The notes beneath the pieces are model-generated. The model was not told where the DNA came from, did no database searches, and saw only the letters and a list, made by a program, of their open reading frames with translations. DNA of 64,000 nucleotides. Source: Paenibacillus sp. YPG26. GTDB lineage: Bacteria; Bacillota; Bacilli; Paenibacillales; Paenibacillaceae. The number at the start of each line of letters is the position of its first letter. Within the stretch, counting starts at the first letter, position 1. The translations under genes and the position numbers were made by a program. The stretch spans positions 2,006,001-2,070,000 of the forward strand of contig NZ_CP084530.1 in NCBI RefSeq assembly GCF_023704175.1. Direction: 5' to 3'. Shown here one piece after another: positions 11,251 through 29,864 of the stretch.

Positions 11251-12798
11251 ATGCGCAAAATCTATGTATTGGACACGACGCTCAGAGATGGAGAACAATC
11301 ACCAGGAGTCAGCTTATCTTCACAGGAGAAGGTTGAGATCGCTCTTCAGCTTCAGCGCCTGGGTATTGACCGCATTGAAGCTGGATTCCCCATTACTTCA
11401 AGGGGGGAAGTTACGAGTGTGCAGGAAGTTGCCAAGGTCATTACCAACGCTACCGTAGTAGCATTCTCACGATCCAGAGAGCAGGATATTGATGCCGCAA
11501 GAGAAGCGCTGAAGCATGCGGTTGATCCTTGTCTGCACCTGTTCCTGGCCACCTCACCTATTCACCGGGAATACAAACTTCGGATGGATAAGAGCAAGGT
11601 GCTGGACACTCTTGAGGCAGCGATCCGATATGGCCGGAAATACTTCGATAAGGTGGAATTCTCAGCTGAGGATGCCAGCCGTACAGAAATCGAGTTCTTA
11701 TGTGAAGTTACAGACCGGGCGATTCGGGCAGGGGCTACCGTCGTTAATCTTCCGGATACTGTGGGATTCGCCACTCCGGAGCAGTTCGGACGTATTTTCA
11801 AGACCGTGAAGGAGAAGGTCAGCGGAATTGAACGGATTCAGCTCAGCACACACTGTCATGATGATCTGGGTATGGCGACGGCGAACACGCTTGCGGCCAT
11901 TGAAGGCGGCGTGGACCAGATCGAAGGAACAATTAACGGAATAGGGGAGCGTGCAGGGAATACGGCAATTGAAGAAGTGGCGCTTGCGCTAGAGACCCGG
12001 GGTGACCACTATGGAGGCGCCAAAACTTCTCTGGTACTAAGCGAAATCTATCGTACCAGCCGGCTTGTGAGCAAGCTGACAGGCATGACGGTGCCCGGTA
12101 ACAAAGCCATAGTGGGAGCCAATGCATTTGCCCACGAATCGGGGATTCATCAGGACGGCATGCTGAAGAACCGCGCCACCTATGAGATTATTAGTCCCGA
12201 GACGATCGGAATCAGATCAAGCAAGCTGGTGCTTGGCAAGCATTCGGGCAGACACGCCTTCAAGGAGCGCTTGATTGATCTCGGTTACACGCTTGATGAG
12301 GAACGTTTAAATATTGCTTTTGCCAAATTCAAAGACTTGGCTGACCGCAAGAAAGAGGTCCTTACAGAAGATATCCGGGCTATCATGGACGAGAACGTTA
12401 CGGAAGGTCCCGTTCCTTATAAGCTGGACAGTATTCAGGTATCCTATGGCAATCACTCTCTGCCCACGGCTGCGATTCGGATAGTCAGGGAGGATGGCAG
12501 CACGGTGGAGGAGGCATCCATAGGCAACGGTTCCGTAGATGCTGTATACCGCGCGATTGACAAGGCCACTGGACTGCATTCCCAGCTTGAGGATTACAAG
12601 ATACATTCCGTAACTCAGGGCACCGATGCATTAGGAGAGGTTCATGTTGTGCTTCAGATGGAGGATATATCGGCAACAGGAAGAGGAATCAGTACGGATA
12701 TTATCGAAGCTAGCGCCAAAGCATATCTGGATGCCTTGAACAGATTGGCAGTACGAACTCAAGATCCCGAGCGGGAAGGGAACATATCGATTCAATAA
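11251..12798 (+). CDS. leuA: 2-isopropylmalate synthase
   Basis: This enzyme condenses acetyl-CoA with 2-oxoisovalerate, the first committed step of leucine synthesis. The N-terminal HMGL-like barrel shows LDTTLRDGEQSPG, the metal-binding HCHDD near residue 201 and NGIGERAGN near 229, followed by HESGIHQDG. The last ~130 residues are the leucine-binding LeuA regulatory domain. Three consecutive ATGs occur at 11245, 11248 and 11251; AAAGGTGG ends at 11243, so the third gives the best spacing. The two T-boxes upstream fit the assignment. No leuB, leuC or leuD follows, so the gene sits outside a leu operon. Confidence 0.95.
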   Translation: MRKIYVLDTTLRDGEQSPGVSLSSQEKVEIALQLQRLGIDRIEAGFPITSRGEVTSVQEVAKVITNATVVAFSRSREQDIDAAREALKHAVDPCLHLFLATSPIHREYKLRMDKSKVLDTLEAAIRYGRKYFDKVEFSAEDASRTEIEFLCEVTDRAIRAGATVVNLPDTVGFATPEQFGRIFKTVKEKVSGIERIQLSTHCHDDLGMATANTLAAIEGGVDQIEGTINGIGERAGNTAIEEVALALETRGDHYGGAKTSLVLSEIYRTSRLVSKLTGMTVPGNKAIVGANAFAHESGIHQDGMLKNRATYEIISPETIGIRSSKLVLGKHSGRHAFKERLIDLGYTLDEERLNIAFAKFKDLADRKKEVLTEDIRAIMDENVTEGPVPYKLDSIQVSYGNHSLPTAAIRIVREDGSTVEEASIGNGSVDAVYRAIDKATGLHSQLEDYKIHSVTQGTDALGEVHVVLQMEDISATGRGISTDIIEASAKAYLDALNRLAVRTQDPEREGNISIQ

Positions 12799-12838
12799 AC
12801 ATTTACTTAACAGCTCTATGTTCAGGCTATATAAAAAC

Positions 12839-12864
12839 AGACGGAACGCCAAAGCGCTCCGTCT
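12839..12864 (-). terminator. Rho-independent terminator of ldh
   Basis: AGACGGA and TCCGTCT form a near-perfect stem with an inner GCG/CGC pair. Read on the minus strand it is followed by GTTTTTAT. It lies in the 77-bp gap between the convergent leuA and ldh genes. Confidence 0.85.
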
Positions 12865-12875
12865 ACTGCCTGTTA

Positions 12876-13805
12876 TTACAGTTCAAGCTTCTCAATCTCG
12901 GATTTGAGTTTGTTCGCCGAGGCGCGAAGTTGCTCCAATTCTTGATCGCTCAGGTTCAGATCCAGCACTTCTCTAACACCAGAACGATCCACTACACTCG
13001 GAATTCCGAGATAGACGTCGGATATACCTTTGTAATCAGTAAGCAGGGTAGATACGTTAAGCACTGATCCTTCGTTCTGGAGAATAGAAGCTACAATCCG
13101 GTCCAAAGCCAGGGCAATAGCATAGGATGTAGAACCCTTGGCGTTAATAATCTCATACGCGGCATTCTTGGTATGGGAGAAGATATCCTCGCGTTCTTCC
13201 TCAGTGACCTCAAGCTTCACACCGGCTACATTCGCAAGACTCCACAGTGGCAGCTCAGAATCGCCGTGCTCACCCACGATATGAGCATGGATACTGCGCG
13301 GGTTGATTCCCTTGTTCTGGCCAATCAGATAACGGAATCTTGCACTGTCAAGCAGAGTACCCGATCCGATAACACGATTGGTAGGGAAGCCGCTCTTTTT
13401 CCAAGACACATAAGTCAGGATGTCTACCGGGTTCGTTGCAACAAGGATGATACCATGATCGTTATATTTCACAATGTTCTGAATAATGCTGTCGAATATG
13501 CCAGCGTTTCGTTTCAACAGATCAATCCGAGTCTCTCCAGGTCGCTGTGACGCCCCTGCTGCGATGATAACAATGTCAGCACCCGCACAGTCACTGTAAT
13601 CGCCAGCCCACAATTTAACTCCACCTGTAAAAGGCAGTCCATGATTCATATCAAGCGCTTCACCATGGGCTTTCTCATGATTGGCATCAATCAATACGAG
13701 CTCCGAGACACGCTCTCTTAGTAGTAAAGTGTATGCGGTGGTAGCCCCTACCGCACCTGTTCCAATAATTACAACTCTGCTGGAACTCATTTTGGATGTT
13801 GTCAT
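12876..13805 (-). CDS. ldh: L-lactate dehydrogenase
   Basis: NAD-dependent reduction of pyruvate to lactate in fermentation. The Rossmann motif is GTGAVG (15-20), with Asp40 for the adenosine ribose. Gln87 in ASQRPGETR marks lactate rather than malate specificity; Arg93 is in the same loop. Asp153/Arg156 (LLDSARFR) and catalytic His180 (VGEHGD) are intact. The protein has 309 aa, normal for the family. The start is preceded on the minus strand by GAGGAG. The promoter and a leader inverted repeat lie upstream at 13839-13899. Confidence 0.96.
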   Translation of the reverse strand: MTTSKMSSSRVVIIGTGAVGATTAYTLLLRERVSELVLIDANHEKAHGEALDMNHGLPFTGGVKLWAGDYSDCAGADIVIIAAGASQRPGETRIDLLKRNAGIFDSIIQNIVKYNDHGIILVATNPVDILTYVSWKKSGFPTNRVIGSGTLLDSARFRYLIGQNKGINPRSIHAHIVGEHGDSELPLWSLANVAGVKLEVTEEEREDIFSHTKNAAYEIINAKGSTSYAIALALDRIVASILQNEGSVLNVSTLLTDYKGISDVYLGIPSVVDRSGVREVLDLNLSDQELEQLRASANKLKSEIEKLEL

Positions 13806-22841: not shown

Positions 22842-23096
22842 TGTGTGTTCCTCCTCAGCTTTTCATATGCATTCTTACCCCTTACACAGGCACGATGACA
22901 CATTCCGGCAGCAGACAGTAATTGTTAACAGCCTTCCCGCTAATTGTTCGAGCAGTAATTTGGCCTCTTTTGAGAATTTACAACAGGTTAACCTGCAACA
23001 GAAATACAAATGATGAACCGCTCCTACAATGAAAGCATACGGAAACAACATAAAGTCACAACAAATCACATGAATGCTTAAGGAGGAGTAAGGTCA

Positions 23097-24194
23097 GTGA
23101 AAAAAGCGATGATGGGGTTAGCCGCTGTGGTTCTCGCCGGTTCCATGCTGTCCGGATGCGGGAAGACAGAGACTACAACCGCAAATGCTACGGCGAATGC
23201 AGGGGCAGCGATCAGTCTTGAGGAGCTGCAAAAAAGTGCCAAAGGGGAAGGGTCTGTCGTGAGTGTGGGGATGCCGGACTCCTGGGCCAACTGGAAGGAT
23301 ACATGGAATGACATTCAGACGAAATACAGTCTGAAACACACAGACACAGATATGTCGAGTGCCGAAGAGATTGCCAAATTTGATTCCGAGAAGGATAAGC
23401 CTACGGCGGATATTGGTGATGTAGGCATGGCTTTTGGTCCGGTTGCTGTAGATAAAGGTGTGACACAGCCTTACAAGACCTCTTACTGGGACGAGATTCC
23501 AGAATGGGCCAAGGATAAGGATGGCCACTGGATCGTTGGCTACCAGGGAACAATCTCGCTCCTGACTAATTCCAAGAAAGTGGCTAATCCACCGAAGAGC
23601 TTCGACGATCTGCTTAACGGGGACTATAAAATCTCCGTAGGCGATGTATCCAAAGCGGCTCAAGCCCAAAGCGCTGTATTGGCAGCAGCCATCGCATTCG
23701 GCGGCGATGAGACAAATATTGAGCCGGGTATTGCTTATTTTGAGAAGCTGGCTAAGGCAGGCCGTCTGTCCAAAACCGAGCTTTCGCTCGCCAACCTGGA
23801 GAAGGGTGAGATTGATGTCGCCTTCCTGTGGGACTTTAACGCCCTGGGTTACCGTGCGCAGCTCGGCGCGGATCAGTATGCCGTATCCATTCCGTCGGAA
23901 GGAAGCGTAGTCAGCGGCTACGCGACAATTATTAATAAATATGCGCCGCATCCGAACGCGGCCAAGCTGACTCGTGAGTATATTCTCAGCGATGAAGGGC
24001 AGATCAATCTTGCCAAAGGATTCGCCCGTCCGATTCGTGAGAATGTCAAGCTTCCGGAGGATGTTGCGGCCAAGCTTCTTCCAAATGAAGAGTACAAGAC
24101 CGCGAAGCCGATCAAGGACTTCAAGGCGTGGGAAGAAACCTCCAAACAAATCCCAGAGCTGTGGCAGGAGCGTGTGCTTGTTCATTTGAACTAA
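23097..24194 (+). CDS. ABC transporter substrate-binding lipoprotein
   Basis: A lipoprotein signal ends in LSGC (Cys near residue 19). The rest is a periplasmic-binding-protein class II fold of the type serving polyamine, iron or aminoethylphosphonate importers: GEGSVVSVGMPDSW near 50, ADIGDVGMAFGPVA near 103, GYQGTISLLTNSKKV near 147 and WDFNALGYRAQ near 243. It is the first gene of a seven-gene operon and starts at GTG with AAGGAGGAG 8 nt upstream. Ligand unknown; the phosphoesterase genes downstream suggest an organophosphate or phosphonate. Confidence 0.88.
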   Translation: MKKAMMGLAAVVLAGSMLSGCGKTETTTANATANAGAAISLEELQKSAKGEGSVVSVGMPDSWANWKDTWNDIQTKYSLKHTDTDMSSAEEIAKFDSEKDKPTADIGDVGMAFGPVAVDKGVTQPYKTSYWDEIPEWAKDKDGHWIVGYQGTISLLTNSKKVANPPKSFDDLLNGDYKISVGDVSKAAQAQSAVLAAAIAFGGDETNIEPGIAYFEKLAKAGRLSKTELSLANLEKGEIDVAFLWDFNALGYRAQLGADQYAVSIPSEGSVVSGYATIINKYAPHPNAAKLTREYILSDEGQINLAKGFARPIRENVKLPEDVAAKLLPNEEYKTAKPIKDFKAWEETSKQIPELWQERVLVHLN

Positions 24195-24228
24195 CGTCCG
24201 TATTCGCTAATTATATCTGTACACCTAT

Positions 24229-24259
24229 ACAGTTACTTCCTATCCTGGGGAGTAACTGT
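24229..24259 (+). promoter_or_regulatory. Intercistronic hairpin after the binding-protein gene
   Basis: Perfect 9-bp stem ACAGTTACT/AGTAACTGT with a 13-nt loop, followed by TTTGGGC rather than a full T run. Such hairpins commonly raise the ratio of binding protein to permease by stabilising the upstream mRNA or by partial termination. Confidence 0.6.
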
Positions 24260-24282
24260 TTGGGCTAAGAAGGAGATTCCCT

Positions 24283-25131
24283 ATGTTGAAAAAGCGTGTG
24301 GACTTCAAGCTGATTCTGGCTTTGATTCCATTTACGATCCTGATTATCGGCTTCGAGCTTCTCCCTGCCATTTCCGTGGTTGTGGAAAGCTTCACAGGTA
24401 CTGAAGGGGGCTTCTCCCTGGAGCATTACGTCTCCGCATTCACGAAGATGTTCTACTTGCAGGCGATCAAGAACAGTCTTATCATCTCGGCCGTCTCCAG
24501 CTGCATCGGGATTATCGCTGGTCTATTCATCGCTTACGCGATTACTAAGGTATCGGAGCAGACGCGCAGCCGTGTACTGATGATCTCCAATATGACCGCT
24601 AACTTTGCGGGTATCCCGCTGGCTTTTGCCTATATTATTCTGCTTGGAAGTAACGGGATCTTCACGATTCTATTCGATCAGTGGGGACTAACCATCTTCT
24701 CGGGATTCAATCTGTATTCCTGGTCAGGGCTGATTCTTGTGTATGTCTATTTCCAGATTCCGCTGGCCACGCTGCTTCTCTATCCTACATATTATGGCAT
24801 CCGGGAAGAGTGGAGGGAGGCTTCTTCTCTCCTTGGAGCAAGCACCTATCAATTCTGGCGCCGTATCGCGCTGCCGATTCTTCTTCCTGCTGCAGCAGGC
24901 ACGTTCACAATTCTGTTCGCAAATGCTATGGGTGCCTATGCAACAGCTTATGCGCTCCTTGGAGGCAACTATAATCTGCTTGCGATCCGGATTGGCTCCC
25001 TGGTAGCGGGTGATGTCTTCACCAGACCCCAGCTTGGAAGCGCGCTCGCTATGGTGCTCGGTCTTACCATGGTGCTGTCACTATGGATTAATGAGCGGAT
25101 GATGCGCCGGGTTAGGAGGGACCTTGGATGA
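24283..25131 (+). CDS. ABC transporter permease (first)
   Basis: A 282-aa inner-membrane subunit with six hydrophobic helices. The cytoplasmic EAA loop, EASSLLGASTYQFWRRIALP near 187-206, contacts the ATPase. The ATG follows AAGGAG. The gene's last four bases overlap the next permease (ATGA). It is the first of two different permeases, as in spermidine or ferric/phosphonate importers. Confidence 0.9.
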   Translation: MLKKRVDFKLILALIPFTILIIGFELLPAISVVVESFTGTEGGFSLEHYVSAFTKMFYLQAIKNSLIISAVSSCIGIIAGLFIAYAITKVSEQTRSRVLMISNMTANFAGIPLAFAYIILLGSNGIFTILFDQWGLTIFSGFNLYSWSGLILVYVYFQIPLATLLLYPTYYGIREEWREASSLLGASTYQFWRRIALPILLPAAAGTFTILFANAMGAYATAYALLGGNYNLLAIRIGSLVAGDVFTRPQLGSALAMVLGLTMVLSLWINERMMRRVRRDLG

Positions 25132-25949
25132 AAAAGGGAGCAGCTTTCCCGCGTGTAATCTTGACGGTTACCATGATCTATTTGCTAATCCCGCTGCTGG
25201 CAACCTTGCTGTATTCGGTCGCGAACTCCTGGCAGAACACGATCCTGCCTGAATCCTGGACCCTGAGATGGTTCCAAGAATTATTGACGGATCCGCGGTT
25301 CACGCAGTCCCTATGGAGAACCGTCTGGATATGCCTCTTAAGCGTAGGGTTAAGTGTCGTTGTAATGCTTCCTACGATCTTCATTGTCGTCGTGTATCTG
25401 CCAAGACTTGAGAAGCTGCTGAACATATTGGTGCTGATCCCCTATGCGGCGCCCGCTGTAGTGATGGCCGTAGGATTGATCAAGCTGTACTCTTCCGGCC
25501 CACTTCCAATTGCCGGCACTATGTGGATACTTGTTGGCGTGTATTTCGTTGCCGTACTGCCTTACATGTACCAAGGGATCCGCAATAGCATGCGCACGGT
25601 CCGTACAGTTGATCTGATCGAGGCAGCTGAACTGCTTGGTGCAAGTAAGCTGACGGCCTTCCGCCGGATTATCGTGCCGAATGTTCTTCCTGGAATCCGG
25701 GTGTCGGTCCTGCTGTCGTTCTCCATCCTGTTCGGAGAGTTCGTCCTGGCCAACCTGCTCGTCGGGGGACAATTTGAGACGATTCAGATCTACTTGTATC
25801 ACAGGTTAAGCGAGAGCGGCCATTTAGCCAGCGCGGTTGTCATCTGCTATTTCCTGGTTATCCTCGTCCTCTCGGGTATACTTCTGGCTCTTAGCGGAAT
25901 CCTTGGACGTGATTCAACTGCAGCCTTCAAGAAAGGATCGGAACAATGA
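25128..25949 (+). CDS. ABC transporter permease (second)
   Basis: A 273-aa permease with about six helices and the EAA loop EAAELLGASKLTAFRRIIVP near 165-184. It overlaps both neighbours by four bases, showing tight translational coupling. It forms the transmembrane pore with the preceding permease. Confidence 0.9.
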   Translation: MKKGAAFPRVILTVTMIYLLIPLLATLLYSVANSWQNTILPESWTLRWFQELLTDPRFTQSLWRTVWICLLSVGLSVVVMLPTIFIVVVYLPRLEKLLNILVLIPYAAPAVVMAVGLIKLYSSGPLPIAGTMWILVGVYFVAVLPYMYQGIRNSMRTVRTVDLIEAAELLGASKLTAFRRIIVPNVLPGIRVSVLLSFSILFGEFVLANLLVGGQFETIQIYLYHRLSESGHLASAVVICYFLVILVLSGILLALSGILGRDSTAAFKKGSEQ

Positions 25950-27010
25950 GCTATTTACTAATCGATAACGTGAACAAAACTTATAATGGCACTTCCGTAT
26001 TGCAAGAGCTGTCGCTCGAGGTCAAGGAAGGGGAGATGGTGACGCTGCTCGGCCCTAGCGGGTGCGGGAAGAGTACTCTGCTCAGATGTATTTCAGGCCT
26101 AACGGACATGGACACTGGCTCGATACTGCTCGAAGGACGTAATATTACCACGTTAGCTCCTAAAGAGCGAAATGTGGGCATGGTCTTCCAATCCTATGCG
26201 CTCTTTCCGAACATGAATGTCTATGACAACATTGCTTTTGGTCTGTCCATGAAGAAGAAATCCAGCCAGCAGATCAAATCCAGGGTAGGTGAGATGCTGG
26301 AGCTGATTGACTTAACAGAAAAGGCCAAGGCATATCCGCATGAGCTGTCCGGCGGGCAGCAGCAGCGCGTCTCTCTTGCAAGGTCGATGGCTGTTGAGCC
26401 TAAGCTTATGCTGCTGGATGAGCCATTGAGTGCGCTGGATGCCAAGATCCGCAAGCATCTGCGTACCGAGCTCAGACAAATACAGAAGCGGGTAGGCATG
26501 ACCATGCTGTTCGTGACCCACGATCAGGAGGAGGCATTAACGATCTCCGACAAAATCTGTCTGATGCATCAAGGACGCATTGTCCAGACCGGCTCCCCAG
26601 GCGAGGTCTATTCCAGCCCGAAGGATGAATTCGTCGCCCGGTTCATTGGCAGCTACAATGTCTTGACCAATAAGGAGGTGTCCAGGCTGTTCGCACAGCC
26701 TTCCTACTCGAATACAGATGTGAGTTATGCCCTCCGGCCAGAAGCCATTATCATTCAGCCTGATCATTCAGAGATTCAACTGACAGCCGCAGACAGCAGC
26801 TTAGCACAAGCACCGCAGTTCTGTCGCGGCATAATTGAGGAGGCTGTTATGCTCGGCAATATTATTCGTTATCGGATTGAGATCCAAGGGGTAAGGCTGC
26901 ATGCAGATGTATTGAACGATAACCAGGCGGTCAAGTTCAGCGAGGGAGACCATGTTCAGGTTCTGATTGACAGGCAGGCTTGTATTCCTCTTGCCCCTTC
27001 AGGTATATGA
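25946..27010 (+). CDS. ABC transporter ATP-binding protein
   Basis: A 354-aa ATPase. Walker A GPSGCGKST lies near residue 36, the signature LSGGQQQR near 134, Walker B LMLLDEPLSALD near 152 and the switch histidine in FVTHDQEEA near 190. The ~110 residues after about 245 form a TOBE-like regulatory domain, as in importers of polyamines or sugars. The start overlaps the second permease by four bases and the stop lies three bases before the DeoR gene. Confidence 0.93.
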   Translation: MSYLLIDNVNKTYNGTSVLQELSLEVKEGEMVTLLGPSGCGKSTLLRCISGLTDMDTGSILLEGRNITTLAPKERNVGMVFQSYALFPNMNVYDNIAFGLSMKKKSSQQIKSRVGEMLELIDLTEKAKAYPHELSGGQQQRVSLARSMAVEPKLMLLDEPLSALDAKIRKHLRTELRQIQKRVGMTMLFVTHDQEEALTISDKICLMHQGRIVQTGSPGEVYSSPKDEFVARFIGSYNVLTNKEVSRLFAQPSYSNTDVSYALRPEAIIIQPDHSEIQLTAADSSLAQAPQFCRGIIEEAVMLGNIIRYRIEIQGVRLHADVLNDNQAVKFSEGDHVQVLIDRQACIPLAPSGI

Positions 27011-27013
27011 GCG

Positions 27014-27811
27014 ATGTCTGTATTAGCAGAAGGGCGCAAGCTTCAGATCAAGCATGAGCTGGAGCGCGAAGGCAAAGTTATGGTAGTGCCGCTGTCCCGG
27101 CAGTTCGGTGTATCCGCCGAGACCATTCGCAGAGATCTTCAGGTGCTTGAGAAGGAAGGGCATCTCAGACGTGTCTACGGAGGCGCGGTCAAGTCCTCGT
27201 TCCGCGGTAATGAAGCCCCTTATAATCTTCGGCAGAAGATGTACGCTGCCGAGAAGAGAGCCATTGGAGAACGTGCCGCCATGATGATCAAGGACGGGGG
27301 AACCGTCGTTATTGATGGAGGAACAACTACGCTGGAGATGGCTAAGGCTATCAGGGGCAGAAGAGGGTTAACCATTCTAACCAGTTCACTTCCGCTGGCC
27401 GCGTGTCTGCTTGAAGGTCTGAGCCGTGACCAGTTCTCGGGCAAGGTCATCATGCTTGGAGGAGAAGTAAGTCCCCTGCAGCACTCCATTACAGGGATTG
27501 CCGGTGAGCGGATGATGCGCGGCTTCAGCATAGACCAGGCGTTCATTTCCGTTGGAGGGGTATCGTTAACGCATGGGTTCACTGACTTCGATCTCAATGA
27601 GGCTTCCATGTCCTGCGCGTTCGCGGAAGCCGCCCAAGAGGTCATTGTACTAGCTGATCATTCGAAGTTCGGGATCAATACCTTTGCCCCAATCATGCCC
27701 ACCGAGCAATGTGATTATATCGTGTGTGATCAGGTGCCTACTCTCCAGTGGCAGGAGCACCTCAGGAAGCGAAAAGTAGCTTGGGTGATTGCCCCGATGG
27801 AATCAACTTAA
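27014..27811 (+). CDS. DeoR family transcriptional regulator
   Basis: A 265-aa protein with an N-terminal winged helix (VSAETIRRDLQVLEKEGHLRRVYGG near 32-56) and a C-terminal DeoR sensor domain (VVIDGGTTTLEMAKA near 97-111, LGGEVSPLQHSITG near 151). DeoR sensors usually bind a phosphorylated metabolite, which fits the phosphoesterases encoded next. It lies three bases after the ATPase gene, so it probably regulates its own operon. No operator can be pinned with confidence. Confidence 0.88.
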   Translation: MSVLAEGRKLQIKHELEREGKVMVVPLSRQFGVSAETIRRDLQVLEKEGHLRRVYGGAVKSSFRGNEAPYNLRQKMYAAEKRAIGERAAMMIKDGGTVVIDGGTTTLEMAKAIRGRRGLTILTSSLPLAACLLEGLSRDQFSGKVIMLGGEVSPLQHSITGIAGERMMRGFSIDQAFISVGGVSLTHGFTDFDLNEASMSCAFAEAAQEVIVLADHSKFGINTFAPIMPTEQCDYIVCDQVPTLQWQEHLRKRKVAWVIAPMEST

Positions 27812-27848
27812 AGATCATCATTTTTTCATTTCAGGGAGGAACAGCTTG

Positions 27849-28673
27849 ATGTCAAAAGTAATAATGATTGTGCTGGATGGTCTTAAGTATGAGACTGCCA
27901 GGGCCTCTATGGGTTATCTGAATCATCTGGTCGAGGTATCCAAAGCCGCATGCTATAAAGTACGCTCCGAGCTTCCAAGCTTATCCCGCCCCCTATATGA
28001 GGTGCTGCTGACCGGAACTCCCTGTTCTGTTAATGGGATTACTGCCAATCATATCGTAAGGCTGTCCCATCATAAGAGTGTGTTCCACCTTGCAGTAGAG
28101 CAGGGCTTGAAGACAGCGGCTGCAGCCTATTATTGGGTGAGCGAGCTGTATAACCGGGCGCCGTTCGATAAGATCGAAGACCGCGAGCAGCATCATGAAG
28201 AACTACCCATCCAGCATGGAAAGTTCTACTTCGACGACGCATATCCGGATTCTCATTTATTCATCGATGCTGAAGTGCTTCGCCGGCAGCACGACCCGGA
28301 TTTCCTGTACATCCATCCCATGGGAATAGATGATACCGGTCATAAATTCACCTCGGACTCGAAGGAATACCGGGGCAAGGTTCTTGAAGCTGATATGATA
28401 CTCGCCACCTTCGTTCCTCAGTGGATGTCACTGGGATATGAGATTATTGTTACTTCAGATCACGGCATGAATACAGACGGTCACCATGGGGGAACAGGGA
28501 TTGAGGAGAGGGAGGTTCCCTTCTATGCGATTGGCTCGGCGTTCACGCCGGGTGAGTATCCGGATCAGCTTCCGCAGCTCGCAGTTGCGCCACTACTCTG
28601 CAGGATGCTGTCTCTTCCACTCCCGGATGCCATGAGCTTTGTCCAGGTGCCTGGCTTTAAGTTGAATCTCTAA
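27849..28673 (+). CDS. Alkaline-phosphatase superfamily phosphodiesterase (nucleotide pyrophosphatase-like)
   Basis: A 274-aa hydrolase without signal peptide, so it is cytoplasmic. Metal ligands of the superfamily are visible: IVLDGLKYE near residue 8, the nucleophile region LPSLSRPLYEVLLTG near 45-59 (Ser/Thr candidate), HPMGIDDTGHKF near 157-168, TSDHGMN near 201 and GHHGGTG near 211. These match type I phosphodiesterases and phosphonoacetate hydrolases rather than classical PhoA. It starts at ATG 27849 with GGGAGGA upstream; the frame is open from 27789. By context it should cleave the compound imported by the ABC system. Confidence 0.82.
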   Translation: MSKVIMIVLDGLKYETARASMGYLNHLVEVSKAACYKVRSELPSLSRPLYEVLLTGTPCSVNGITANHIVRLSHHKSVFHLAVEQGLKTAAAAYYWVSELYNRAPFDKIEDREQHHEELPIQHGKFYFDDAYPDSHLFIDAEVLRRQHDPDFLYIHPMGIDDTGHKFTSDSKEYRGKVLEADMILATFVPQWMSLGYEIIVTSDHGMNTDGHHGGTGIEEREVPFYAIGSAFTPGEYPDQLPQLAVAPLLCRMLSLPLPDAMSFVQVPGFKLNL

Positions 28674-28781
28674 AAAAGAATTAGACTGGAAAGTTACCCA
28701 TAGTTAAGCGTTCCATATGCTCTGGAAAAGCATAGCTTTAATCAATAGTTCAACTTATCTAGCATCCGGGAGGGAACTAGT

Positions 28782-29774
28782 GTGAAGGTAGATTTTCATT
28801 TTCATTTGGAGGAAGGTCCTTATACGCTGAACTGGCTTCAGCGCACAAGTCTGGCTTTGCAGCGAACCCGAAGGACGACGGAAGCTTCCGAGAGGCTGGA
28901 TAGCTTGGAATCTGTTCAGTCAGTCGTCCGCGGCCTATCCAGGAGGATGGATGAAGGCTGCTTCTCCGAGCGGTGGATAACGAAGTATATTGAGCAGGGA
29001 ACAAGGCAAGGCATCGAACATTTCGGTGTCGTTGATCATTTATACAGATTCGTTGAATTCAAGCCTTATTATGAGAAGCACATGCTGATCGATGGAAGTC
29101 CACTTGGACAGCTTCAACAGGCTTGGCTTAACCAAGTATGTGTATACTCTATTCGTGAATATTTGGATGGAGTTCAGAATGTCGCCCGGTTCTATGGGAA
29201 TCTCTCCATCGGAATTGAGGCTGATTATTTCGAGAATGGGGAAGAGGAGCTAGAAGAGCTGCTCTCCAGCTACAGCTTTGATTACGTAATCGGATCTGTT
29301 CACTTCCTGAATGGATGGGGGTTCGACAACCCTAATACCCAGCACCTCTTCAAGGGCCGCCAGTTGGAGGATCTATATGCGCAGCATTTCGAGAATGTGA
29401 TTCGAGCCGTGAATTCCGGCTTGTTCCAGTTCATTGCCCACCTCGATAATCTGAAAGTATTCGGATTCCGTCCATCGGAAAGGGACCTGCTTGGCTGGTA
29501 CGATGCGGTGGCTGCGGCACTGGCGCATGCAGGCGTGGCTTCAGAGATCAACACCGGGCTGGCTTACCGTTATCCGGTTAAGGAAATGTGTCCAAGTCCC
29601 AACTTCCTCCGGGTACTGCATCGGCACGGTGTTCCGGTAACTTTAAGCTCGGACGCCCATTTCCCCGATGATATTGGAACGATGCTGGATGAAGCTATTA
29701 TCATGGCCAAATCCATCGGATACGAGGACATTGTCTACTTTAAGAACAAGCAGCAGTATTCCTTACCGATCTAG
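28782..29774 (+). CDS. PHP-domain phosphoesterase, histidinol-phosphatase-like
   Basis: A 330-aa metal-dependent phosphoesterase of the PHP family. The four classic motifs are present: HFHLEEG near 5, DHLYRF near 85, IGIEADYF near 143 with SVHFLNG near 170, and the C-terminal SSDAHFPDD near 287; HLDNLK near 222 is a further ligand site. It starts at GTG with GGGAGGG 7 nt upstream and ends the operon. No other histidine biosynthesis gene is near, so a role in the operon's own phosphoester pathway is more likely than HisJ. PHP enzymes acting on cyclic phosphodiesters are known, which is one option. Confidence 0.8.
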   Translation: MKVDFHFHLEEGPYTLNWLQRTSLALQRTRRTTEASERLDSLESVQSVVRGLSRRMDEGCFSERWITKYIEQGTRQGIEHFGVVDHLYRFVEFKPYYEKHMLIDGSPLGQLQQAWLNQVCVYSIREYLDGVQNVARFYGNLSIGIEADYFENGEEELEELLSSYSFDYVIGSVHFLNGWGFDNPNTQHLFKGRQLEDLYAQHFENVIRAVNSGLFQFIAHLDNLKVFGFRPSERDLLGWYDAVAAALAHAGVASEINTGLAYRYPVKEMCPSPNFLRVLHRHGVPVTLSSDAHFPDDIGTMLDEAIIMAKSIGYEDIVYFKNKQQYSLPI

Positions 29775-29792
29775 AAGTGAGAGGAAATAATT

Positions 29793-29847
29793 GAAAAGGA
29801 TGCCTTCCGATACCTGCCCTGAAGCAGATCGTGAAGACATCCTTTTC
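29793..29847. terminator. Bidirectional terminator between the phosphoesterase operon and the aminopeptidase gene
   Basis: GAAAAGGATG-CTTC and GAAG-CATCCTTTTC pair across a 25-nt centre, with A and T runs on the outer sides. It serves both convergent genes. Confidence 0.75.
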
Positions 29848-29864
29848 ATCTGAGTTAACCAAGT

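Follow-up and report, generated by a model that had tools for sequence, protein, structure and literature searches.

The window analysed here is a 64,000-nucleotide stretch of the 3.97-Mb genome of the soil bacterium Paenibacillus sp. YPG26. Between positions 23097 and 29774 it carries seven open reading frames (ORFs), all on the + strand, for a substrate-binding protein (SBP), two permeases (P1 and P2) and the ATPase of an ABC transporter, a DeoR-family regulator, an enzyme of the alkaline phosphatase superfamily (to be referred to as AP) and a PHP-family phosphatase (PHP). A preliminary description had placed a seven-gene import and hydrolysis operon here, and the ORFs and their Pfam matches agree with it in position, strand and family. 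Among public genome contigs, the nearest AP proteins are those of Paenibacillus zeisoli (90% identity) and P. tuaregi (82%).

23097..24194, + strand: SBP, substrate-binding lipoprotein, PhnS-like; SBP_bac_6 (PF13343)
24283..25131, + strand: P1, ABC permease 1; BPD_transp_1
25128..25949, + strand: P2, ABC permease 2; BPD_transp_1, nearest NCBIfam model PhnV
25946..27010, + strand: ABC ATPase with TOBE domain; ABC_tran and TOBE_2, nearest NCBIfam model PhnT2
27014..27811, + strand: DeoR-family regulator; HTH_DeoR and DeoRC
27849..28673, + strand: AP, minimal ENPP-like enzyme of the alkaline phosphatase superfamily; PF01663
28782..29774, + strand: HisJ-like PHP phosphatase, resembling PRK06740; PF02811

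These genes are grouped far more often than expected by chance. Seventy-five loci were fetched from public genomes by similarity to the AP protein alone; 72 contain the SBP gene, 70 the whole transporter, 60 the DeoR gene, 57 the PHP gene and 55 all seven, the last two counts including one locus (L023) whose PHP matches are fragments. Of the loci that are incomplete (20), three come within 600 bases of a contig edge, namely L015, L029 and L078. The order is SBP-AP-P1-P2-ATPase-DeoR-PHP in 31 of the 55 complete sets and that of the window in 22, and AP comes first in 2. Gene content is kept while gene order changes, which argues for a joint function. The PHP fragments in L023 (9853-10311) follow an intact AP gene, possibly a recent loss of PHP.

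Among 295 Paenibacillaceae genomes, AP is found in 70, SBP in 86 and PHP in 62. An SBP gene is located within 12 kb of AP in 67 of the 70, and a PHP gene is near AP in 38. The PHP matches (65 in total) are near SBP in 42 cases, near AP in 38 and near neither in 22, and 23 are not within 12 kb of an SBP gene; 19 of 91 SBP matches are near neither AP nor PHP. The unit of import and hydrolysis is thereby borne out for the transporter and AP. Separation of the hydrolases from the transporter, named beforehand as refuting, is not the rule for AP but is partly observed for PHP, which is also missing in 18 of the 75 AP loci. PHP therefore appears to be an exchangeable step. In a set of 398 Bacillota genomes, AP matches at E 1e-25 occur in 10, three of them other AP proteins, and the module is thus patchy. 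The matches in G188, G218 and G391 (556-576 residues, 33-36% identity) have an unrelated context and were excluded from the AP family.

The SBP gene has a GTG start codon, and its product carries a lipobox, LSGC, as judged by eye. The protein scores 105.8 bits against PF13343, above the Pfam gathering score of 24.6. At 1e-3 it is matched among NCBIfam models by the PhnS-type ones only, below their equivalog cut-off (67 compared to 310 bits). The other subunits show the same relationship to the Phn models, with 71.7 compared to 593 and 99.7 compared to 358.7 bits for the permeases, the latter being P2 against PhnV, and 392.2 compared to 457.7 bits for the ATPase and PhnT2. The ATPase also resembles PotA below its cut-off (339.6 compared to 482 bits), and the SBP is weakly similar to iron binders. 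Over the aligned part, the SBP is 62% identical to PDB entry 5T1P, which is presumably the Campylobacter jejuni protein Cj0727.

The AP gene starts with ATG preceded by GGGAGG, within a longer ORF that begins with TTG at 27789. Its product has 274 residues, with Ser46 at the nucleophile position and Asn67 at the oxyanion position. Together with the match to PF01663 and the NPP fold, these positions place AP in the NPP/ENPP class. Its best structural matches are diesterases, and AP is a probable phosphodiesterase judging from its sequence and fold. Ser46 is invariant in 50 AP sequences, and no Lys residue is invariant or nearly invariant among them. In comparison, the phosphonoacetate hydrolase PhnA needs two active-site Lys residues and a Thr nucleophile, according to the available part of PMC10574752. 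A PhnA-type C-P hydrolase was rejected for AP on this ground, which concerns conservation in the 50 sequences and not superposition.

PHP passes the subfamily cut-off of hisJ_fam (98.2 compared to 90.2 bits) and that of PRK07328 (210.6 compared to 202). It is below the equivalog cut-offs of the HisJ histidinol-phosphatase PRK08123 (44.4 compared to 133 bits) and of PRK06740, a histidinol phosphate phosphatase domain-containing family (416.1 compared to 442 bits). A role in the histidine pathway was rejected, as the genome encodes a separate HisJ that passes PRK08123 (L002, 136.5 bits). By eye, neither the N-terminus of AP (MSKVIMIVLDGL) nor that of PHP (MKVDFHFHL) has a signal peptide. Both enzymes should therefore act inside the cell, which fits import of the intact compound.

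The preliminary description noted no phnW, phnX or C-P lyase gene, and this absence extends to the entire genome. The best matches to PhnX (48 compared to 220 bits) and PhnW (40.2 compared to 400.8 bits) are below cut-off, and the profile search gave no match to PhnJ or Phn-HD. With no marker above cut-off, routes by C-P lyase, by PhnWX or of the PhnZ type were rejected for this genome, and only the phosphate-ester branch is workable by known enzymes here. In Paenibacillus itself, the module seems to handle a C-O-P ester. Among 59 genomes, including that of the window, 21 have a strong AP match (E < 1e-90). PhnX is above cut-off in four of these and is never beside AP, being on another contig in two and 0.8 and 3.4 Mb away in the others. 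A compound that does not fit the standard phosphonate routes was also proposed earlier. The lack of standard phosphonate pathway genes agrees with this, but relatives do give leads for the ligand that point to 2-aminoethylphosphonate (AEP), namely the importer AepSTU, PhnR-like regulators, and operons with PhnX-PbfA-PhnW or TmpAB.

In these relatives the transporter and, mostly, AP make up the constant core, and the enzyme of the last, phosphate-releasing step varies. Where this enzyme could be named beside AP, it is a histidinol-phosphatase-like phosphatase or an enzyme for AEP or its trimethyl form (TMAEP). AEP is the C-P analogue of phosphoethanolamine and TMAEP that of phosphocholine, and histidinol phosphate is an amino-alcohol phosphate. 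In one Bacillota genome, a locus with the order SBP-P1-P2-ATPase-AP-PhnX-PbfA-PhnW (L156) has all three phosphonate enzymes above cut-off and an AP 60% identical to that of the window. A second module in the same genome (L157) has an SBP 66% identical to that of the window and a downstream PhoA-like gene far below the model cut-off. AP overlaps tmpB, itself located after tmpA, in Labrenzia (L135). On a Leptolyngbya contig (L014), AP (63% identical) is divergent from SBP-P1-P2-ATPase-PhnX-like-HpnW, with the PhnX-like protein below cut-off and HpnW cut by the contig end.

Plasmids carry the module as well, with 198 plasmid records showing an AP match, 179 of them from Enterococcus. In the one Enterococcus faecium plasmid record examined (L133), a PHP gene of another family, PRK07329 (304.3 compared to 303 bits), is divergent from SBP-AP-P-P-ATPase, and the module lies near IS elements. 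A Pseudomonas aeruginosa plasmid (L134) has a PhnR-like GntR gene (283.5 bits, cut-off 296.75) divergent from SBP-AP-P-P-ATPase-HAD; the HAD-IB protein is above its subfamily cut-off, and its nearest models are histidinol-phosphatases. A PhnR-like gene is near all four gammaproteobacterial loci that were fetched (L134, L136, L153 and L154); HAD genes were identified at two of these loci. A tree of 27 AP proteins does not separate members in phosphonate context from those in phosphatase context, and its bootstrap is not settled. The unit is real and widespread, and its family spans the scavenging of both phosphate esters and phosphonates.

Another so far unstudied association of this branch of AP emerged among seven plasmid loci of Rhizobiaceae and Phyllobacteriaceae. 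A distant AP directly follows an SBP nearest to Opp/Nik models in five of them (L148-L151 and L155), and the divergent gene there is MocR-like in the cases with an annotation or a test; L137 and L152 do not show this arrangement. The Opp/Nik assignment is below cut-off and was tested for L149.

For comparison, 21 loci with this type of SBP and no AP were fetched, and the SBPs of six of them are 55-65% identical to that of the window. In L173 a PF00149 gene precedes PHP, as tested, and L191 and L206 have MgtC and PF00149 genes, the PF00149 gene of L191 being tested and the rest assigned by resemblance. PHP is followed by MgtC in L170 (tested; MgtC at 12549-13310) and, by resemblance, in L171, L172 and L174. 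A GDPD enzyme as a substitute for AP was rejected, as the gene after PHP in L170 is of the MgtC family. L188 (tested), L194 and L207 (by resemblance) encode a xylose-isomerase-like protein together with a HAD protein, and their importer may be a version for sugar phosphates. The remaining loci have DeoR only (five) or none of AP, DeoR and PHP (six). An MgtC-family gene is often directly after PHP or the ATPase in these versions, with further neighbors by resemblance in L176, L178, L182 and L203, and may link magnesium or phosphate homeostasis to the pathway. In a locus without SBP (L204, 7506-13824), DeoR, PHP and PF00149 genes stand beside glpK (above cut-off) and a glpD-like gene for a glycerol-3-phosphate oxidase or dehydrogenase, which suggests glycerol as a product in that lineage.

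The P1, P2, ATPase and DeoR genes of the window are tightly joined, with two 4-nt overlaps and one 3-nt gap. The spacers are wider between SBP and P1 (88 nt), DeoR and AP (37 nt) and AP and PHP (108 nt). The four-base or few-base junctions ascribed to the first part of the operon are therefore present from P1 to DeoR but not between SBP and P1. The terminator proposed for its end corresponds to an inverted repeat, which is absent, however, from the matches of a terminator scan; that scan gave 5 matches compared to a mean of 6.0 in shuffles, no more than chance, and a promoter scan gave nothing above chance. The features outside the genes are:

22977..22993, + strand: TTTACA-N5-TTAACC, a direct repeat resembling a Pho box, period of 11 bp, 120 nt ahead of the SBP start; suggestive only
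23057..23070, + strand: leader repeat CACA-N6-CACA, a candidate operator for DeoR
24224..24264, + strand: imperfect 17-nt inverted repeat between the SBP and P1 genes
29792..29848, no strand assigned: inverted repeat, 16-nt arms (94%), 25 nt between them, possible terminator

The two repeats in the leader are leads only as regulatory sites. The PhoP box consensus has repeats with an 11-bp period, and the two nearest relatives have TTTACA-N5-TTTACC and TTAACA-N5-TTTACC at the Pho-like repeat. A loose pattern, TTNACN-N5-TTNACN, is found on the + strand in 21 of 70 operon upstream regions compared to 7 of 277 controls (p 6.5e-11), and on the other strand in 12 of 70 compared to 5 of 277. A strict pattern gives 7 of 70 and 1 of 277 on the + strand, and 8 of 70 and 3 of 277 on the other. 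These p-values are overstated because the loci are related, and the loose pattern has no match upstream of the pstS gene of this genome. A perfect 12-bp palindrome, CAGGTTAACCTG (22984-22995), overlaps the Pho-like repeat and is not kept in the two nearest relatives. The DeoR protein is nearest to AgaR and GlpR models, below their cut-offs. Outside Bacillaceae and Planococcaceae, CACA-N6-CACR is found in 23 of 43 loci with DeoR and 3 of 20 without (p 0.0055); over all 93 rows the counts are 23 of 72 and 3 of 21, which is not significant (p 0.17). The motif was picked post hoc, some start sites are visibly wrong, and 23 rows were dropped from the count, 22 because they have no SBP and one because it lies at an edge.

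With moderate confidence, we read the operon as a module that scavenges phosphorus from a small phosphodiester, which would be taken up intact and cleaved in two steps inside the cell. The lipoprotein SBP and the ABC transporter would import the diester whole, the cytoplasmic ENPP-like AP would cut it, and the HisJ-like PHP would remove phosphate from the released monoester; a diesterase followed by a monoesterase fits the folds of AP and PHP. DeoR may act as a repressor of the operon that is relieved by a phosphorylated intermediate, and Pho-type input may add control by phosphate starvation. The likeliest class of substrate would be glycerophosphodiester-like with an amino-alcohol head group, of the glycerophosphoethanolamine type; like ENPP6 and ENPP7, AP would cut so that the phosphate stays attached to the head group. 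Such diesters are favored because an enzyme of this kind would feed both the phosphate and the phosphonate branches. In relatives, the same kind of AP would serve esters of the AEP type, with the last step swapped for phosphonate enzymes. Gene content, conservation, folds and exchange of partners are observed, and ligand, order of cleavage and regulation are inferred. The two-step idea of the preliminary description is partly supported and is the best single account once refined to a probable diester-cleaving AP and an exchangeable phosphorus-releasing step.

A broader proposal is more tentative. The loci may represent a widespread, unnamed modular pathway for intact phospho- and phosphonodiesters whose head groups resemble amino alcohols, in which one cytoplasmic ENPP-like enzyme serves both C-O-P and C-P branches, the matching phosphorus-releasing enzyme differs between lineages, and to which AepSTU and the Campylobacter operon would belong. 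PHP or HAD would act on phosphate esters, and PhnW-PbfA-PhnX, TmpAB or HpnW with a PhnX-like protein on phosphonates. AepSTU and the Campylobacter operon would then have diesters of such head groups, and not free AEP, as their real substrates. To our knowledge, phosphonate pathways start from free AEP. If true, this proposal would supply an entry step for esterified AEP and phospholipid head-group diesters, forms found in membranes and polysaccharides. It would account for the minor part that AepSTU plays in the import of free AEP and offer a function for a phosphate-regulated operon with no assigned role, and a single purified SBP would be enough to test the family.

The evidence that weighs most against a diester is the set of AP-less operons with glycerol or sugar genes, which would imply a broader or different ligand. 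A rather unlikely alternative is that the transporter takes up a phosphorylated sugar or polyol, in the manner of AfuABC or with glycerol phosphate as the ligand; PHP would then be the true first enzyme and AP an accessory monoesterase, and no diester would take part. AP is linked more tightly to SBP than to PHP, however, its best fold matches are diesterases, and the ORF list shows no kinase or isomerase gene within the operon of the window. We consider it improbable that the Paenibacillus operon handles AEP or an AEP ester with AP or PHP itself breaking the C-P bond. The sub-threshold PhnS, PhnT2 and PhnV matches and the AEP leads in relatives point in this direction, but the genome has none of the four phosphonate markers above cut-off, PhnX is never beside AP in the strong-AP genomes, and AP has no conserved Lys as used by PhnA. 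Less probable still is the same pathway in reverse order, with PHP as the diesterase (like Sb-PDE or Elen0235) and AP as the monoesterase; the AP superfamily does include PafA-like monoesterases, and diesterases of the PHP family exist, according to the available part of PMC11656708. That the transporter is an ordinary one for iron or polyamines and the two hydrolases are bystanders is very improbable, and this reading was rejected, as the same seven genes stay together in three orders, the SBP matches PhnS-type NCBIfam models only, and AepSTU supports AEP uptake. In its favor are the weak iron-binder similarity of the SBP, the sub-threshold PotA match of the ATPase and the 'ABC-type Fe3+ transport system' label of the AepS gene in a table of PMC5082522.

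The module can be compared with several known systems. The AP of the window shares its fold and the positions of the nucleophile and the oxyanion Asn with ENPP6, ENPP7 and Xac NPP, but it is only 18-20% identical to them in structural alignments and is short, bacterial and apparently cytoplasmic; its residue at the nucleophile position is Ser, as in the aligned ENPP6 sequence. Compared to the HisJ-type histidinol-phosphate phosphatase 2YXO, presumably a T. thermophilus protein, PHP has a longer N-terminal part, in addition to its sub-threshold scores and the HisJ encoded elsewhere in the genome. The AEP importers PhnSTUV and PhnS2T2U2 (putative) belong to the same transporter superfamily and provide the nearest NCBIfam models; in contrast, all subunits of the window are below the curated cut-offs and the genome is without PhnWX. 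No literature treating AP together with the transporter was found in the sources covered, which mostly exclude subscription papers, and the terms 'alkaline phosphatase' and 'phosphodiester' are absent from the available text of the genomic-context papers on phosphonate breakdown that were covered.

The C. jejuni operon cj0727-cj0733, which we take to comprise SBP, diesterase-type, permease, ATPase and HAD genes, resembles that of the window in this presumed composition and in phosphate regulation, and presumably differs in having no DeoR or PHP gene. Cj0728-Cj0734 are reported as phosphate-regulated in the available literature, and the operon has no currently assigned function in the accessible part of PMC7176700; PMC2715421, as far as its available text goes, concerns other C. 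jejuni genes.

AepSTU of Pseudomonas putida BIRD-1 is a minor importer of AEP; in a strain from which a further two importers are already missing, its deletion leaves no growth with AEP as the phosphorus source; AepS (PPUBIRD1_3891) is a constitutively made PF13343 protein (available part of PMC8316502, in which 'alkaline phosphatase' does not occur). In the corresponding part of PMC5082522, the GntR gene PPUBIRD1_3890 and the ABC ATPase gene 3895 are phosphate-responsive and 3891 is not affected by PhoBR. AepSTU differs from the system of the window in having GntR instead of DeoR and a constitutive AepS, and P. putida degrades AEP via PhnWX. On the other hand, a PF13343 SBP beside a GntR regulator and ABC genes is also the arrangement of AP-linked modules, and the numbering leaves room for AP, P1 and P2 between SBP and ATPase. 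Judged from this numbering alone, GntR, SBP, three genes and ATPase would correspond to the arrangement in P. aeruginosa, the additional gene being AP.

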